Shown one piece after another: positions 10,137 to 32,774 of a DNA stretch of 32,909 nt. The position numbers and the translations under genes are program-made. The notes below the pieces were generated by a model that did not search any database, was not told the origin of the DNA, and worked only from the letters and a program-made list of their open reading frames with translations. The stretch is taken from NCBI GenBank assembly GCA_944332705.1, contig CALVKM010000010.1:1-32909 (forward strand), written 5' to 3'. Numbering within the stretch: position 1 is the first letter of the stretch; each line of letters starts with the position of its first letter. The stretch is from an uncultured Bacilli bacterium. GTDB lineage: Bacteria > Bacillota_I > Bacilli_A > RF39 > UBA660.

Positions 10137-11959
10137 TAATTATGTCTTTTTTTAAGAACTACTGTTGCTGCTGCAAGTCCCATTACTGATATAGCTCCAA
10201 GTGCCATAAACACACCAACACTATCATTAGTACTTGGATTTTCAACTGGTTCATCAATAGCTGGTTCATCATCATCTATTAACACATCACTATAAACTAG
10301 AGCATAATTTGAAAATTTATCAGTTTCAAATGTTAATGATTTACCATCACTAGCAACTGTTGTATCTAAAACTTCAATTTTACCATCGTGTTCTCTTAAC
10401 ATATAATAAGTTCTTGTATATCCTTCACTTACTTGTTGTAATTCATCTGGTAATAATACTGTAAGTGTAAGAGGATTTGTAAGTTCTGTAATATTTCCAA
10501 GAGTAGTATTTAAAGTAGTATTATTAATTAATATTTCAATATTATAATATCCTACTACAAATTTATTACCTGTAATTTCTTCTAAAAGAGTATTTACTTT
10601 ATCAATTAATTCTTCATTAGCTTCTATTTTTGTAATTTCTAAATTAGTTGTAATAGTATCTCCAGCATTTATTGCATCCTTAACTTCTGCATTATTATTT
10701 AAAATATTATCATCTAGAAAAATATTTAAATCATCAGTATTTACTACTCCTATTGCTACTTCTGCAACACCTTCAGTTGCATCAACTATTGGAGCTTTCA
10801 CTTCAGTTATATAATTAACTACAACATTATCTAAATTAATATCACTAATCATACTTTCAAGTGTATTTTCACTTTCCATCGGTGATTGAGCAATATTTAT
10901 TGTGACTAAAGCTGTTTTAGCATTAGATAAGCCTGCTGCAACTAGATCATCAAATGTTTCATAAAATTTGTCGTATTCACTATTACCATTTAAGCTAGCA
11001 AATTGAAATCCAGCATAAATATTATTATATTTAACACTCTTAGCTATATTAATAATCATATTTCCTACTTGACCATAAGCAATATTTCCTAATTTATTCC
11101 AAGTAGTTGCTTGATCAGATTTAGAAACCTCTCTATAAGCGGAACCCGCAAAGATATAATCAATTTCAGAATCTCCCGCAATGTTTACTTCCATATTTTG
11201 AATCATAACTCTTAAACCACCATCAACTTGTGTTACTTTAGAGTCTTCAACATTTACAACATAATTATCAATAAAGCCATTTGTTCCAGCTGATAAAGAG
11301 TTATAAGCAACAACTACACTACCATCTAAAATTCCCGTTTCTCCAACAACAGAATTATTTAAAACATTTACTAAAACATCTTTAGCATAAGTATATGATG
11401 ATGTAAAATAAATTCTTTTAGTTGTTGAATTATCAAATGTAAAATTAACTTTATCAGCAGTATAAAACTCTTTAGCATTATCAAACATTTCTGCTGGCAC
11501 AACAGTATCAGATACTCCTTTATATGTCATACTTACACCAGAAATTTCAGTAACATCAGCATTTTTAATACTCATATTAATTGTATTAACATGAATTCTA
11601 TCATAAGATTCTACTTTAGCATCAATAGCATTACCACCATGAATAGCAAATACTTTACCACTATTCATAGTAATTGATGTTGAATCTAAATCTATTACAT
11701 TACCAGATTCATCTACTTCTGGATTATAATAACCTCCAACAACAACAGTGCCGACATTTAAAGCTTGTTTACCTCCATCCCATATTGCATAAGTTACGCC
11801 ATCAATCTCTTCAATCACAACAGGTGTCCCATTTGCTACAAAAGTATTAGCAGCACCATCCAAATAATATGGTTCACTAGCTTCTGTAATTTCTTTAGCA
11901 CTAACCATCATAGGTACTAATACAACCAAAACCATTAATCCTTTTAATAATTTTTTCAT
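10136..11959 (-). CDS. Secreted, sortase-anchored surface protein of unknown function
   Basis: 607 aa from the ATG at 11959, which has an ideal GAGGAGG site just upstream. A longer in-frame reading from 12064 would add a lysine/isoleucine-rich leader in front of that site and is rejected. The N-terminus MKKLLKGLMVLVVLVPMMVSA is a signal peptide. The body is beta-rich and Asn/Val-rich with many short strands ('TSITMNSGKVFAIHGGNAI', 'YIFAGSAYR', 'NIYAGF'). A later domain runs 'EGYTRTYYMLREHDGKIEVL' to 'FETDKFSNYALVYSD', like the Ig-like modules found before anchors in gut Firmicute surface proteins. The C-terminus has 'NPSTND', a hydrophobic helix and 'KKRHN', an NPxTx variant of the LPxTG sorting signal. 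It follows khpA but is separated from it by a terminator. Confidence 0.8.
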   Translation of the reverse strand: MKKLLKGLMVLVVLVPMMVSAKEITEASEPYYLDGAANTFVANGTPVVIEEIDGVTYAIWDGGKQALNVGTVVVGGYYNPEVDESGNVIDLDSTSITMNSGKVFAIHGGNAIDAKVESYDRIHVNTINMSIKNADVTEISGVSMTYKGVSDTVVPAEMFDNAKEFYTADKVNFTFDNSTTKRIYFTSSYTYAKDVLVNVLNNSVVGETGILDGSVVVAYNSLSAGTNGFIDNYVVNVEDSKVTQVDGGLRVMIQNMEVNIAGDSEIDYIFAGSAYREVSKSDQATTWNKLGNIAYGQVGNMIINIAKSVKYNNIYAGFQFASLNGNSEYDKFYETFDDLVAAGLSNAKTALVTINIAQSPMESENTLESMISDINLDNVVVNYITEVKAPIVDATEGVAEVAIGVVNTDDLNIFLDDNILNNNAEVKDAINAGDTITTNLEITKIEANEELIDKVNTLLEEITGNKFVVGYYNIEILINNTTLNTTLGNITELTNPLTLTVLLPDELQQVSEGYTRTYYMLREHDGKIEVLDTTVASDGKSLTFETDKFSNYALVYSDVLIDDDEPAIDEPVENPSTNDSVGVFMALGAISVMGLAAATVVLKKRHN

Positions 11960-12318: not shown

Positions 12319-12597
12319 TTACTTTTCCTTTTTAATTTTAGAATCTTTATATTCTTTCATGATACCTTCTTTTCTTAAAAGTGATGCAACAGTATCAGTT
12401 GGTTGAGCACCATTATTTAACCATTTTAATGCAAGTTCTTTATCAATTTTAACTTCTGCAGGTTGTGCTACTGGATTATAAGTTCCAACAGTTTCAATGA
12501 AACGACCATCTCTTGGAGAACGCGCATCAGCAGCTACAATACGATAAAATGGTTTTTGCTTAGCTCCCATTCTTTTTAATCTTAATTTAACAGCCAT
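12319..12597 (-). CDS. rpsP: 30S ribosomal protein S16
   Basis: 92 aa, the usual S16 size. Diagnostic stretches are '[19 protein letters not shown]', '[19 protein letters not shown]' and '[18 protein letters not shown]'. It binds 16S rRNA early in 30S assembly. GAAGGAGGG lies just before the ATG, and a near-consensus promoter is 30 bases upstream. In Bacillus rpsP and khpA lead directly into rimM-trmD-rplS; here those genes lie about 5 kb upstream instead. Confidence 0.98.
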
Positions 12598-12626
12598 AAT
12601 TTCCCTCCTTCAAATTAACTAATATA

Positions 12627-12655
12627 ACTTTACCACAATAAATCATATGTGTCAA
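12627..12655 (-). promoter_or_regulatory. Sigma-A-type promoter of rpsP-khpA
   Basis: A perfect TTGACA -35, a 17-base spacer and a TAAAGT -10 on the minus strand, 30 bases before the rpsP start codon. It sits between the rpsP start and the end of the upstream beta-helix gene. Confidence 0.82.
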
Positions 12656-12671
12656 CCTTTTTTTGTTGACT

Positions 12672-13967
12672 TCAACAACTAAAGCCACCGGAGCCTATGT
12701 TTTCAGGTGGTGTATCATGGTCATTATATACTCCACCAGCTATTGCTGTTACATTGGCAGAATCAGAGATATAAATGTTTGCGGCTGTGGATTGGATACC
12801 ACAATATGTTTGATACATTCCACCTCCTCCAATGCCTGCAGCAAGCATTCCTCCTTGAGCATATACAGTTCCACCATTGATGCGGATTTCACCAGTTACA
12901 GAACTGTTAGTACCTCCACCAATTCCTGCACCAGTACCAGTTGAAATTGCCGTAACATTTCCTCCATTAATTTCAACTAATGCTAAATCACCACCACCAA
13001 TACCTGCATTTATATTACCTACTGCACTTATTGTGCCAGAATTAATTATTATTGTGCCAATTCCCTGAACACCAGAATTACCTATTCCCGTCCCCCCAGT
13101 AACCGAGAGCGACCCAAGTCCATCAATTTTCAACGTTGATGTTCCAATTAATGAAATTGCTACACCATAGTTTAAATTTATTGTATTTTCGCCTTCTATA
13201 TATAAATTTATAGTTGTATAAGAACCTATATCAATACTACCACCACTAATATTTACATTATTTAAAGTAATATTAGAAGTAATATTAGAAGTAATATTAG
13301 AAGTTCCCCCATATATATCAATTCCATATTCTTCTGTAGTTCCTGTTATAACTATAGGTAATGTATTATCTATTTCTATTTGTTCTGCTAATCCTCCACC
13401 AGAGACATATAATGTATTTTCAGTACTTCCTTCATTAATTACAATATTTCCAAGTGATATATCTAATGCTAGTTCGGTAACTGCTTCTGTTGCTGTATTT
13501 AAATTATAATTTGCAGAATTATAATTTAATGTATCTGTTACATAGGCATTTATGTTATATTCTGTTTCTTCTTCTAGATTAGTAAATGTATAGACATTAT
13601 TGGTGCTATTATCAATATATTTTTTACCATCTATACTAAAATAGTAATTACTTATTGGATTATCACCAGCAGTGGCATCAACTGTTATGGTGATACTACT
13701 ATCAGTTATATCACTTGTTGTGATATTTTTTATTGTTGCAAAGTTATAATCAAATGTTTTTACTGCTACTCCAGCTGCAGGACTTTCATAATCATATTTA
13801 TCTTGATATTCATAATCAACAACATAACCAGTAACCTCTATAAAATTTTCACTCTTTTCATTATTTTCATCCATTAAATCTTTACCTATAATTACTGATA
13901 CTACCCCAATTATTATAAAGATAATACCACCAATTACTTCTTGCCAAGGTTTTAGTTTTATTACCAC
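12672..13967 (-). CDS. Membrane-anchored fibronectin-III/beta-helix repeat protein
   Basis: 431 aa starting at a GTG behind GGGAGG. Residues 9-28 (QEVIGGIIFIIIGVVSVIIG) form one membrane helix. The next ~45 residues, 'FIEVTGYVVDYEYQDKYDYE', resemble the start of DUF3592-type membrane proteins, but that domain is cut short. A fibronectin-III-like module follows ('TSDITDSSITITVDAT' to 'EEETEYNINAYVTD'). The rest is a Gly/Asn/Ile-rich parallel beta-helix with 'AGIGGG' at three roughly regular positions, a pattern common in gut bacterial adhesin-like proteins. It ends abruptly at 'GSGGFSC', without a sorting signal. The C-terminal third of the gene uses more G and C than its start, possibly a recombined cassette. 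It lies between cotE (terminator at 14017) and the rpsP promoter. Function unknown; a surface or carbohydrate-contacting role is a guess. Confidence 0.72.
   Translation of the reverse strand: MVIKLKPWQEVIGGIIFIIIGVVSVIIGKDLMDENNEKSENFIEVTGYVVDYEYQDKYDYESPAAGVAVKTFDYNFATIKNITTSDITDSSITITVDATAGDNPISNYYFSIDGKKYIDNSTNNVYTFTNLEEETEYNINAYVTDTLNYNSANYNLNTATEAVTELALDISLGNIVINEGSTENTLYVSGGGLAEQIEIDNTLPIVITGTTEEYGIDIYGGTSNITSNITSNITLNNVNISGGSIDIGSYTTINLYIEGENTINLNYGVAISLIGTSTLKIDGLGSLSVTGGTGIGNSGVQGIGTIIINSGTISAVGNINAGIGGGDLALVEINGGNVTAISTGTGAGIGGGTNSSVTGEIRINGGTVYAQGGMLAAGIGGGGMYQTYCGIQSTAANIYISDSANVTAIAGGVYNDHDTPPENIGSGGFSC
13267..13302 (-). repeat. Three perfect 12-bp tandem repeats inside the beta-helix gene
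   Basis: The 12-mer gtaatattagaa occurs three times head to tail and encodes the repeated tetrapeptide SNIT. It keeps frame, so copy-number change would lengthen or shorten one beta-helix coil without breaking the gene. Confidence 0.9.
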
Positions 13968-14016
13968 TTTTATGCCTCCCTATCTTAATATAAGTTTAGC
14001 ACAATTCAACGAACAA

Positions 14017-14038
14017 AAAAAGTGCTCGAGCACTTTTT
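14017..14038 (-). terminator. Intrinsic terminator after cotE
   Basis: A perfect 22-base palindrome with GTGCTCGAGCAC at its centre and A5/T5 flanks. It overlaps the cotE stop codon and separates cotE from the beta-helix gene. Confidence 0.8.
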
Positions 14039-14564
14039 AGTTTTCCTTGTCTTCTTCTAAATAATCATCATTTAATTCTAAGTCATCATCATCAACTATT
14101 TCTTCATAATCGTCGAAAGTCTCTTCAACACTTACTTTGACTTTAGTATCTCCAACAATTTCCACACCAATTTCTTTTTCAATATCAAGTTTTACTACGC
14201 CGCTATCTACTGATACATTAGTAACTGTTGGTTGTCTAAGCGTTCTAACAATAATTTCTGATGCATCATCCAAAACATGTTCTTCTTTTAGAGGAACTTT
14301 TAAAATATCCGAATAGCTAAAACTTTGCGTAGCTACTGCTGTTTTTTTATCAGCGTCATATGAATACCAAACATTTACATCAAATGAACCATTAACTATA
14401 ACACTTCCATCATTTGACTTAGTACCACTAAATTTATTATTTATTACCCAACAACCTAACACCGTATTAGGAGCCTCTTCGGGGGTTAAAGAAAAACTAT
14501 TAGTAGTTGTCTTCTTGGCTTTACCAATAACTGCTTTAGTTACTATTTCTTTAAAACTAGACAT
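14037..14564 (-). CDS. cotE: Spore coat morphogenetic protein CotE
   Basis: 175 aa, against 181 for Bacillus subtilis CotE, the protein that organises the outer spore coat. The match covers the length: 'FKEIVTKAVIGKAKK', 'TVLGCWVINNKFSG', 'GSFDVNVWYSYDADKKTAV', 'LDDASEIIVRTLRQPTVTNV', 'EIVGDTKVKVSVEE', then the typical very acidic C-terminal tail ('DDYEEIVDDDDLELND'). It is followed by its own terminator, and a weak mother-cell-type promoter lies upstream. With sigK 4 kb away and the YjcZ-like genes 11 kb away it argues that the lineage still makes, or recently made, endospores. I see no broken frame or missing segment. Confidence 0.93.
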   Translation of the reverse strand: MSSFKEIVTKAVIGKAKKTTTNSFSLTPEEAPNTVLGCWVINNKFSGTKSNDGSVIVNGSFDVNVWYSYDADKKTAVATQSFSYSDILKVPLKEEHVLDDASEIIVRTLRQPTVTNVSVDSGVVKLDIEKEIGVEIVGDTKVKVSVEETFDDYEEIVDDDDLELNDDYLEEDKEN

Positions 14565-17280: not shown

Positions 17281-17947
17281 CTATATCCTCCATTAAATCT
17301 GGTCTTAACTTATTTGTTTTCTTAATTTGTTCTTGCAATCTATATTCTCTAATTTTTTGATGGTTGCCACTAAGCAAGACATCTGGTACTTTTAACCCCC
17401 GATATTCTGCAGGTTTAGTATACTGGGGATAATCAAGTAAATTATTATTAAATGATTCATTTACTAATGATTCCTCATTTATTACTCCTGGTATTAGTCT
17501 TACTACACTATCCATTATAGCCATCGCAGCAATTTCTCCCCCAGTAAGGATAAAATCACCAATACTAATGATTTCATCTGCAAGTATTTTAATTCTCTCA
17601 TCAAAACCTTCATAATGGCCACAGATAATAATTAAATGTTTATATTCTTTTAATCTATTTGCAACATTTTGTTTATAAGTAGTGCCTTCTGGTGATAAAA
17701 GTATGACATGAGAATCCTTAGTTTTAATTTTATCTAACGCTATAAATATTGGTTCGCATCTTAAAAGCATTCCTGCTCCTCCCCCATAAGGCGTATCATC
17801 TACTTGTTTATTTGGAAGAGGTGATGAATCTCTAAAATTAATTATATTTATTTCCACTAATTTTTTATCTATTGCTCTTTTAATTATTGATTCATTAAGC
17901 ATTCCCTTAAAAAAATCAGGAAATAAAGTTAAAATATCAATTTTCAC
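17273..17947 (-). CDS. trmD: tRNA (guanine-N1-)-methyltransferase
   Basis: SPOUT-family enzyme that makes m1G37 in tRNAs, preventing +1 frameshifts. 224 aa with the family hallmarks: 'IDILTLFPDFF', 'PYGGGAGMLLRCEPI', 'LLSPEGTTYKQ', 'IICGHYEGFDERI', 'SIGDFILTGGEIAAMAI', 'YPQYTKPAEYRG', 'PDVLLSGNHQKI'. The reading frame can be extended to 17956, but that upstream GTG lies within the Shine-Dalgarno GAGAGGTG, so the GTG at 17947 (protein KIDILTLF) is the better start. It follows rimM with a ~45-base gap and overlaps the unknown gene downstream by 8 bases. Confidence 0.96.
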   Translation of the reverse strand: MKIDILTLFPDFFKGMLNESIIKRAIDKKLVEINIINFRDSSPLPNKQVDDTPYGGGAGMLLRCEPIFIALDKIKTKDSHVILLSPEGTTYKQNVANRLKEYKHLIIICGHYEGFDERIKILADEIISIGDFILTGGEIAAMAIMDSVVRLIPGVINEESLVNESFNNNLLDYPQYTKPAEYRGLKVPDVLLSGNHQKIREYRLQEQIKKTNKLRPDLMEDIDE

Positions 17948-30784: not shown

Positions 30785-30867
30785 TTACATAAGTTGACAA
30801 CTGTGTGACCTCCGGGCGGAGATGCCACCAGTGGAGGATTAAGGTTTACCACACTACCAAAGTAAAC
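30785..30867. other. Cluster of short inverted repeats at and after the 3' end of the variable-protein gene
   Basis: Within 83 bases: GTAAA-C-TTTAC (30786-30796 region), AGTT-GAC-AACT, CTCCG-GG-CGGAG (30810-30821) and CCAC-CA-GTGG (30825-30834), the last two nested inside CCTCC...GGAGG (30809-30837), plus GTTTAC...GTAAAC spanning the stop codon (30844-30867). Part of it is GC-rich in an AT-rich genome. Known DGR targets carry a small DNA hairpin just past the variable region that raises retrohoming efficiency. Confidence 0.6.
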
Positions 30868-32774
30868 GGATCACTTTCAGTTCCACTTCCACCATTATAT
30901 TCTACATTAGATTTTAGATAGAAGACAGGCCGGGCCGAATAGCCGTAGTGCGCGCTGCCGTTGTTGTACACACCGAACACATTGTAACTGTTCGACGAAT
31001 ACGGAGTAATAGTCCATTCGTAAAGTCCCATATATAACCAATTATTTGATGTTATTGAAGAACTGTTATAACCATTTAAATTTGTTATCCAAGCATCAGG
31101 ATATGCGGCATAACCATAATCACTTGGGTACATTAAGCCTATTTCATCAGTATATGTTGTTGGATTACTGTCAAATCCTGCGTTATTTCTCTCTCCATCA
31201 TAAAATGCTTTGGCTGTATTACTCAAAGAAGTCATTCCTCCAAGATGCCATGTTGTTGGTGCTATTAGATTTTGCCAAGTTGCACCTAAATAATTCCAAT
31301 AATTTGTATTTAAATTTATTGTATTAAATTCACTTGTTGTCCAGTTATTTGAGCCCACCCTACTTACACTAGTATCATCATTCCAACTATATATGGCAAT
31401 ATCAGATTGTGTCATGTTTCCTTTATAATATGATGATTCTCCCCACGCATCAACATAACTTCCACGATAATCTCTTCCATCTGTTCCAAGCATGGCACTT
31501 GTTGTATAATCGGCTTTGATTAATTTTACTTGTCCATTAAACACTCCTATAACACGATATAGATTTTCGTCTGGGCAAGGATTTTCAGTTGTACCAAAAC
31601 ACACATAATTATTTGGATTGGCTCCTGCATATCTATAAGATTTGTCTTTCGCATCTGGTAATGCTTGCTTTTCCATTGTTCCACTACCTACATCAATGGC
31701 TAAAAATGCATATGGACCAGAAATCACCGCATATCCACTGCATTGTTCTTGAACTACTAAAATTTGATTTTCATTATATACTTGTATTCCGCTTGTGGTT
31801 TGACATACTCCACTTTCACTATTCCACGATACTTCTTCAACTTCTCCCATTTCTACACCAACAGTTATCAATGATGCATCTATGTACATTTCTAAAGCAT
31901 AAAACACCTGTTGACAATCCTCTACACTAGTTGAAGGATCACCATCGGGAAATGCCAATACTGGATTTCCATTATACATACAATATTCATTTTCACCTAT
32001 TATTGTTCCATTATGATAATATAATCCATTTGATTCTTGATTTTCTTCATCATATAACTTTGCTATATTACATGCTAGTGTTCCTTCTTTACAAACCTTA
32101 TGATAATCGGTTGATTCTCTTGATAATATAACTTCTCCTTCTAATGTTTTACCTCCATTTTCTGCTTGATTAGTATCAAGATTTACAAATGTTACAGTAA
32201 ATGTCCATTCTTGAACTGTTTCATCAGTACTAGATGCTGATGTTATTTCATATAATGATGCTACATTATATAAACCACTTTTAGTGGTTATATCAAACCC
32301 TTTAACTTCACTTCCATCAGCATTTGTTACTTCAACATATTCTAATCCATCTACTTGAGTAACTACTTGATCTAATGGATCAGTAATAGTTAGTACTATT
32401 TCTGGTTTATTATCATCTGTTGTATAAATATAATTATTAGAATTTATTAAAAAATAAACATAATAATTATATGTGGCATTATTATCTGTTGAATTAGCTA
32501 AAAGTGTTGCACTACCTACTGCTGTATCAGATAAACCTCCACCTCCTTCAACTACATTAAATTGTGTTGGATTTAAACTTATATCTTTATCTACTTCAAA
32601 TCTTAAAATATCTACTGCATCACTTGTGACACTGGCATTTCCTCTTGCTTCATCTTGTAAACTTGCAATGATATATGCTAGTGACACCCCAACACATAAT
32701 ATTAACACAGCAATTATTGTTAATATAATTTTTTTGTTCTTATCCAATTTTTTGGTACCTATATTTTGTTCCAT
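30846..32774 (-). CDS. Membrane-anchored surface protein with C-terminal DUF6273/C-lectin-like domain; candidate DGR target
   Basis: 642 aa. A short basic cytoplasmic N-terminus is followed by one membrane helix ('KIILTIIAVLILCVGVSLAY'). Residues about 45-220 are a beta-rich, camelysin/TasA-like module ('DILRFEVDKDISLNPTQFNV'). A Cys-containing middle part (about 220-360) is unrecognised. From about 390, 'YVCFGTTENPCPDENLYRVI', 'GVFNGQVKLIKADY', 'SSYYKGNMTQ', 'EIGLMYPSDYGYA', 'WLYMGLYEWTITPYSS' and 'ARPVFYLKSNVEYNGGSG' form the DUF6273/FGE-like fold used by variable proteins of gut Firmicutes. The 31-residue stretch before RPVF has base composition unlike the rest and AAY-type codons, as if copied from a template repeat. 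Start ATG 32774 has a GAGGAAGTG site 11 bases away. Likely role: binding diverse ligands at the cell surface. Confidence 0.8.
   Translation of the reverse strand: MEQNIGTKKLDKNKKIILTIIAVLILCVGVSLAYIIASLQDEARGNASVTSDAVDILRFEVDKDISLNPTQFNVVEGGGGLSDTAVGSATLLANSTDNNATYNYYVYFLINSNNYIYTTDDNKPEIVLTITDPLDQVVTQVDGLEYVEVTNADGSEVKGFDITTKSGLYNVASLYEITSASSTDETVQEWTFTVTFVNLDTNQAENGGKTLEGEVILSRESTDYHKVCKEGTLACNIAKLYDEENQESNGLYYHNGTIIGENEYCMYNGNPVLAFPDGDPSTSVEDCQQVFYALEMYIDASLITVGVEMGEVEEVSWNSESGVCQTTSGIQVYNENQILVVQEQCSGYAVISGPYAFLAIDVGSGTMEKQALPDAKDKSYRYAGANPNNYVCFGTTENPCPDENLYRVIGVFNGQVKLIKADYTTSAMLGTDGRDYRGSYVDAWGESSYYKGNMTQSDIAIYSWNDDTSVSRVGSNNWTTSEFNTINLNTNYWNYLGATWQNLIAPTTWHLGGMTSLSNTAKAFYDGERNNAGFDSNPTTYTDEIGLMYPSDYGYAAYPDAWITNLNGYNSSSITSNNWLYMGLYEWTITPYSSNSYNVFGVYNNGSAHYGYSARPVFYLKSNVEYNGGSGTESDPFTLVVW
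30925..31017 (-). other. Candidate DGR variable region
   Basis: Coding-strand codons run ACT CCG TAT TCG TCG, then AAC AGT TAC AAT, and later GGC AGC GCG CAC TAC, ending CGG CCT GTC TTC. Bases 30921-30960 hold 28 G/C out of 40, against a strongly AT-rich gene. Many codons end in C or T and differ from AAC/AAT only where adenine would be replaced. The fixed end (ARPVFYL) marks the expected invariant homing side. Confidence 0.65.

Follow-up and report, generated by a model that had tools for sequence, protein, structure and literature searches.

A DGR variable repeat in a membrane-anchored protein gene of an uncultured Bacilli bacterium with several retroelement cassettes

The DGR of the Bordetella phage BPP-1 (mtd/avd/brt) combines a reverse transcriptase (RT) and Avd with a template repeat (TR) beside the RT gene, a variable repeat (VR) at the 3' end of the target gene that differs from the TR specifically at template A, and an inverted repeat behind the VR, described as a hairpin 4-34 bp from the VR with a 4-nt GRNA loop (PMC3240598). 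Published DGR targets include DUF6273 proteins of gut phages, as an earlier note on the present DNA had correctly stated: in the tentaclins DUF6273 is described as C-type-lectin-like (PMC10743442), and in Faecalibacterium prophages the variable region lies at the DUF6273 C-terminus (PMC11792537). Further, one TR may serve several target genes, with multiple VRs found in 28.6% of the non-redundant DGRs of one survey (PMC6642488). RIT (recombinase in trio) elements, in turn, are mobile elements with three adjacent tyrosine recombinase genes in ~3.5 kb (PMC3414803). Features of each of these are found in an uncultured Bacilli bacterium whose draft genome (G000; 1.43 Mb in 81 contigs, 84% complete, 5% contamination) includes, as contig C10, the window, i.e. 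the whole stretch of 32,909 nucleotides analyzed here. A segment near one end of it is a real DGR VR, belonging to an already known kind of system. The features of the window are:

30846..32774, minus strand: DGR target gene, coding for a membrane-anchored protein of 642 aa (open reading frame; orthologue with the same downstream flank at G019:C20)
32661..32732, minus strand: N-terminal hydrophobic segment, predicted membrane anchor or signal (read from the translation)
30849..31637, minus strand: C-terminal DUF6273-like domain (model m2da2337176ba, fold match 9qa6)
30930..31004, minus strand: VR (aligned with the TRs of contig C17 and of genome G040, a sister species)
30930..30944, minus strand: GGCTATTCGGCCCGG, a GC-rich 3' segment common to VR and TR that has one mismatch with the C17 TR and is a candidate initiation-of-homing sequence (putative function)
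30953..30954, minus strand: point at which 15 bases are deleted compared with both the C17 TR and the G019 VR (alignment)
30809..30837, minus strand: GC-rich inverted repeat downstream of the stop codon, common to C17-type VR genes (weak fold in the window copy; putative role)

The segment had been singled out for its GC-richness in an AT-rich gene, and this is borne out: G and C make up 28 of the 40 bases at 30921-30960, a count reached or exceeded in only two 40-mers of the whole 32.9-kb window (starting at 30921 and 30924), and the GC fraction of 30924-31008 is 0.55, as against 0.33 for the gene and 0.27 for the window. The encoded peptide, bounded by EWTITP and ARPVFYLKS, is likewise as described, on the minus strand within the frame 30846-32774, while the limits first given (30925-31017) prove slightly wide, the VR proper spanning ~30930-31004 by comparison with the TRs. 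The neighbors of the gene, as read from the translations of their open reading frames, are housekeeping genes. The same gene with the same downstream flank occurs on G019:C20, where the bin holding the VR is 71% identical and carries the 15-base gap, with nearby bins at 84-100%; identity also falls elsewhere in the gene, to as little as 58%, and thus the VR is not its sole fast-evolving region.

The assignment of the protein to DUF6273 holds at the level of fold: a model of its C-terminal 263 residues (pLDDT 74.9, pTM 0.80) matches residues 36-305 of 9qa6 with a Z of 12.1, a domain named DUF6273 in PMC12402451, and Pfam detects DUF6273 in 6 of 19 relatives of the protein (best 2.2e-6). For the protein of the window itself, Pfam gave no DUF6273 match, and Pfam and NCBIfam together no convincing family; a profile of the target domain likewise found no solved structure by sequence. 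The possible relation of this domain to C-type lectins follows the description in PMC10743442, surfactant protein A being the only C-type lectin in the fold comparison of the model (Z 2.2).

The earlier note had called for a genome-wide search for a DGR reverse transcriptase. Among eight RVT_1 matches in the source genome, DGR-like RTs occur at four loci, the SQ motif being present on C17, C8 and C3 and altered on C52, and the RT on C17 is accompanied by both Avd and a TR:

C17:10847-12283: target gene
C17:12420-12869: MutS-like open reading frame
C17:12854-13210: Avd
C17:13204-14265: RT
C17:14288-14339 and 17827-17867: the two halves of the TR, split by a 3.5-kb insert

The C17 RT (RVT_1, 1.3e-18) displays PIGNQSSQF, of the DGR-type (I/V/L)GxxxSQ form, together with YMDD, and its closest sequence relative of solved structure is 8ub7 (E 7e-15). 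Its Avd matches PHROG 3206, 'Avd protein of DGR' (9e-12), and bAvd (1.5e-6) and MutS_I (0.004) are matched on the contig, though both fall short of the curated Pfam cut-offs; the RT, Avd and MutS-like frames are all intact. The TR, a short non-coding repeat, begins ~20 bases past the RT stop codon, and in G004, G012, G041, G016, G005 and G044 the orthologous RT is followed by an uninterrupted TR. As completeness of the draft is 84% and contamination 5%, we assign C17 to the source organism by the shared gene family and genus-wide occurrence. C17 also carries two VR genes with a perfect 806-base common tract that includes the VR (L030:3489-4294 and 10623-11428) and differing sequences outside it, for which recent conversion, duplication or an assembly effect are possible sources.

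When the halves of the C17 TR are joined and treated as one repeat, the C17 VR differs from it at 16/32 A and 3/64 non-A positions, and the window VR at 10 of 26 template A and 5 of 55 other positions, plus the 15-base gap. The 3' end of the window VR shares GGCTATTCGG(T/C)CCGG with the C17 TR, with one mismatch, and may function in homing. Over its first 51 bases the window VR shows six mismatches to the G040 TR, all six at template A, a match that arose while several TRs were being compared and whose chance value of 0.0015 is accordingly uncorrected; overall, 10/26 A and 3/49 non-A positions differ. The G040 TR also carries GTG for CTG, a variant informally anticipated from the VRs of the window, C6 and C3. 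The window VR fits the TR of the sister species better than that of its own genome. The anticipation that every mismatch would fall on a template A is realized only over the 5' 51 bases against the G040 TR and fails against the interrupted C17 TR, with its five non-A mismatches and 15-base gap. A pattern search of the source genome for a second, G040-like TR gave 17 hits (reversed pattern, 36); apart from the C17 TR and VRs already known, these were at chance level.

Three other DGR cassettes and no fewer than eight other VRs are present in the source genome. The C3 TR is uninterrupted (C3:62583-62689) and has three A-biased VRs; the C3 RT is broken by a group II intron (Rfam) at the YMDD-coding codons (L033, ~12438-14330), and splicing at boundaries inferred by eye would restore YMDD. 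The same 5' intron junction recurs on G019:C1 (L158). The C8 RT shows YMND where YMDD is expected, and the C52 RT ISNMTSQF where IGNxxSQF is expected. In the lineage of C8, C52 and C3 the TR precedes the MutS-like gene, and on C17 it follows the RT.

A GC-rich inverted repeat is conserved behind the stop codon of the C17-type VR genes, its outer stem showing one two-sided change (CCTCC/GGAGG to CCCCC/GGGGG, on C3), and it could possibly have a role in target recognition. The window copy, ~92 bases from the end of the VR with a loop of 5-6 bases, folds no better than shuffled sequences. The scan for these repeats relied on a regular expression modeled on known copies and covered redundant, VR-enriched loci, so its specificity is uncertain. 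VR genes of the other DGR lineage are followed by a different GC-rich inverted repeat (GCTCG...CGAGC; target genes at C3:62146, on C44 and on C8).

These observations bear on the strongest rival, which qualifies rather than replaces the reading of the segment as a DGR VR: it might be a relic, rewritten by a DGR in the past and now served by no working cassette in its lineage. The interruption of the C17 TR, the imperfect fit of that TR to the window VR at non-A positions and across the gap, the weak hairpin of the window copy, the identical VRs of the two C17 genes within their common tract and the YMND of the C8 RT all point in this direction. They are countered by the intact RT, Avd and MutS-like frames on C17, by the C3 cassette, where the TR is intact and splicing could remove the intron from the RT, and by the incompleteness of the draft, in the missing part of which a G040-like TR may sit. 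We rate this qualification at somewhat short of an even chance. The split of the C17 TR means that the window VR may now be frozen, unless the unassembled fraction of the genome contains an intact template or the insert excises.

It is highly improbable, by comparison, that the segment arose without any retroelement, by ordinary divergence of paralogous surface-protein genes or by gene conversion between them, as the many paralogs and the conversion-like identical tract on C17 might suggest. Across 19 VRs of the genus, each compared with the best of six TRs as picked by non-A agreement, 290 of 610 template A differ as against 98 of 1074 other positions (Fisher p 8e-71, a value that overstates the case because the VRs share ancestry and the choice of TR by non-A agreement favors the result). 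The same bias is repeated by TR/VR pairs within single genomes: the G041 VR differs from the G041 TR at 13/33 A and at 0/57 non-A positions, and the C3 TR from the adjoining C3 VR at 14/34 A and 1/66 non-A (14-16/34 and 1-6/66, respectively, across the VRs on C46, C3 and C44). That the TR is a short non-coding repeat adjoining an RT also argues against exchange among protein-coding paralogs. Least probable of all is a GC-rich, Ser/Asn/Tyr-rich loop, selected or transferred, that resembles a VR by composition only: it would account for the GC contrast with the gene, but the base-for-base match of the backbone to TRs behind RTs in the own and sister genomes speaks against it, and rules out its simple form.

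With RT, Avd and TR in the same genome and mismatches biased to template A in both the window VR and its family, the DGR interpretation put forward in the earlier note is supported. We are therefore nearly certain that the segment is a VR of a chromosomal DGR acting in trans by the following mechanism. The RNA copy of the TR, transcribed from C17, would be copied into cDNA by the DGR RT together with Avd, template adenines being read as any base, so that AAC/AAT codons would change to TAC, AGC, CAC, GGT and the like. The mutated cDNA would then home to the window gene and several dispersed paralogs and replace the homologous VR at their 3' ends. The diversified product would be the DUF6273 (C-type-lectin-like) domain of a membrane-anchored protein, predicted to be exposed on the surface and presumably binding a ligand or receptor. 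The RT, Avd, MutS-like gene, TR, VRs and A-specific mismatch pattern are directly observed; transcription, homing, surface exposure and ligand binding are the predicted steps.

The insert that splits the C17 TR measures 3487 bases (C17:14340-17826) and encodes three tyrosine recombinases, each with PF00589 (2e-31, 4e-21 and 7e-30); with three such genes adjacent in ~3.5 kb, it appears RIT-like by gene content. A copy in G040 (G040:C43:4975-8465) is 98% identical and splits the TR at the same position. On G002:C33 one end of the element directly adjoins the 3' portion of a TR belonging to the other lineage, on G003:C19 an end lies beside AAC-rich, TR-like sequence, and on G019:C51 the site is not a TR. 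Thus, at 4 of the 5 resolved sites the element is within a TR sequence or next to one, and two TR families share the position of the insertion, with both TR halves visible only at C17 and G040; apart from the one on G042:C29, which is outside this count, the further RIT-like elements of the genus are on contigs that do not resolve their flanks. It is quite possible, if as yet short of probable, that the element prefers DGR TRs for integration, thereby switching the mutation system off, and on again if precisely excised. Such targeting stays a hypothesis, as the sites are few and the C17 and G040 insertions could share one ancestral insertion. If the preference holds, the element would parasitize a mutation system or serve as its switch. 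A literature search, with most subscription papers outside its reach, found no paper linking RIT elements with DGRs.

In comparison with known systems, the present one is alike the BPP-1 DGR in its RT, Avd, TR beside the RT, 3'-end VR, A-specific mismatches and inverted repeat behind the VR. It differs in being chromosomal rather than phage-borne, in having targets dispersed on several contigs, in its extra MutS-like gene, in the greater distance and larger loop of the inverted repeat, and in the split TR of the source genome. With the gut-phage DUF6273 targets it shares a variable region in the DUF6273 domain; here, however, the domain belongs to a membrane-anchored protein rather than a phage receptor-binding protein, and DGR diversification is thereby placed among chromosomal housekeeping genes and not in phage tails. 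Like the multi-VR DGRs it directs one TR to several target genes, and it goes beyond them in that four cassettes of two lineages, in differing states of repair, are present in one 1.4-Mb genome: a multi-cassette, multi-target repertoire in small-genome uncultured Bacilli. Finally, whereas the C17 insert resembles the described RIT elements, it sits inside a DGR template repeat; together with the group II intron at the catalytic codons of an RT, it shows DGR parts struck by other mobile elements.
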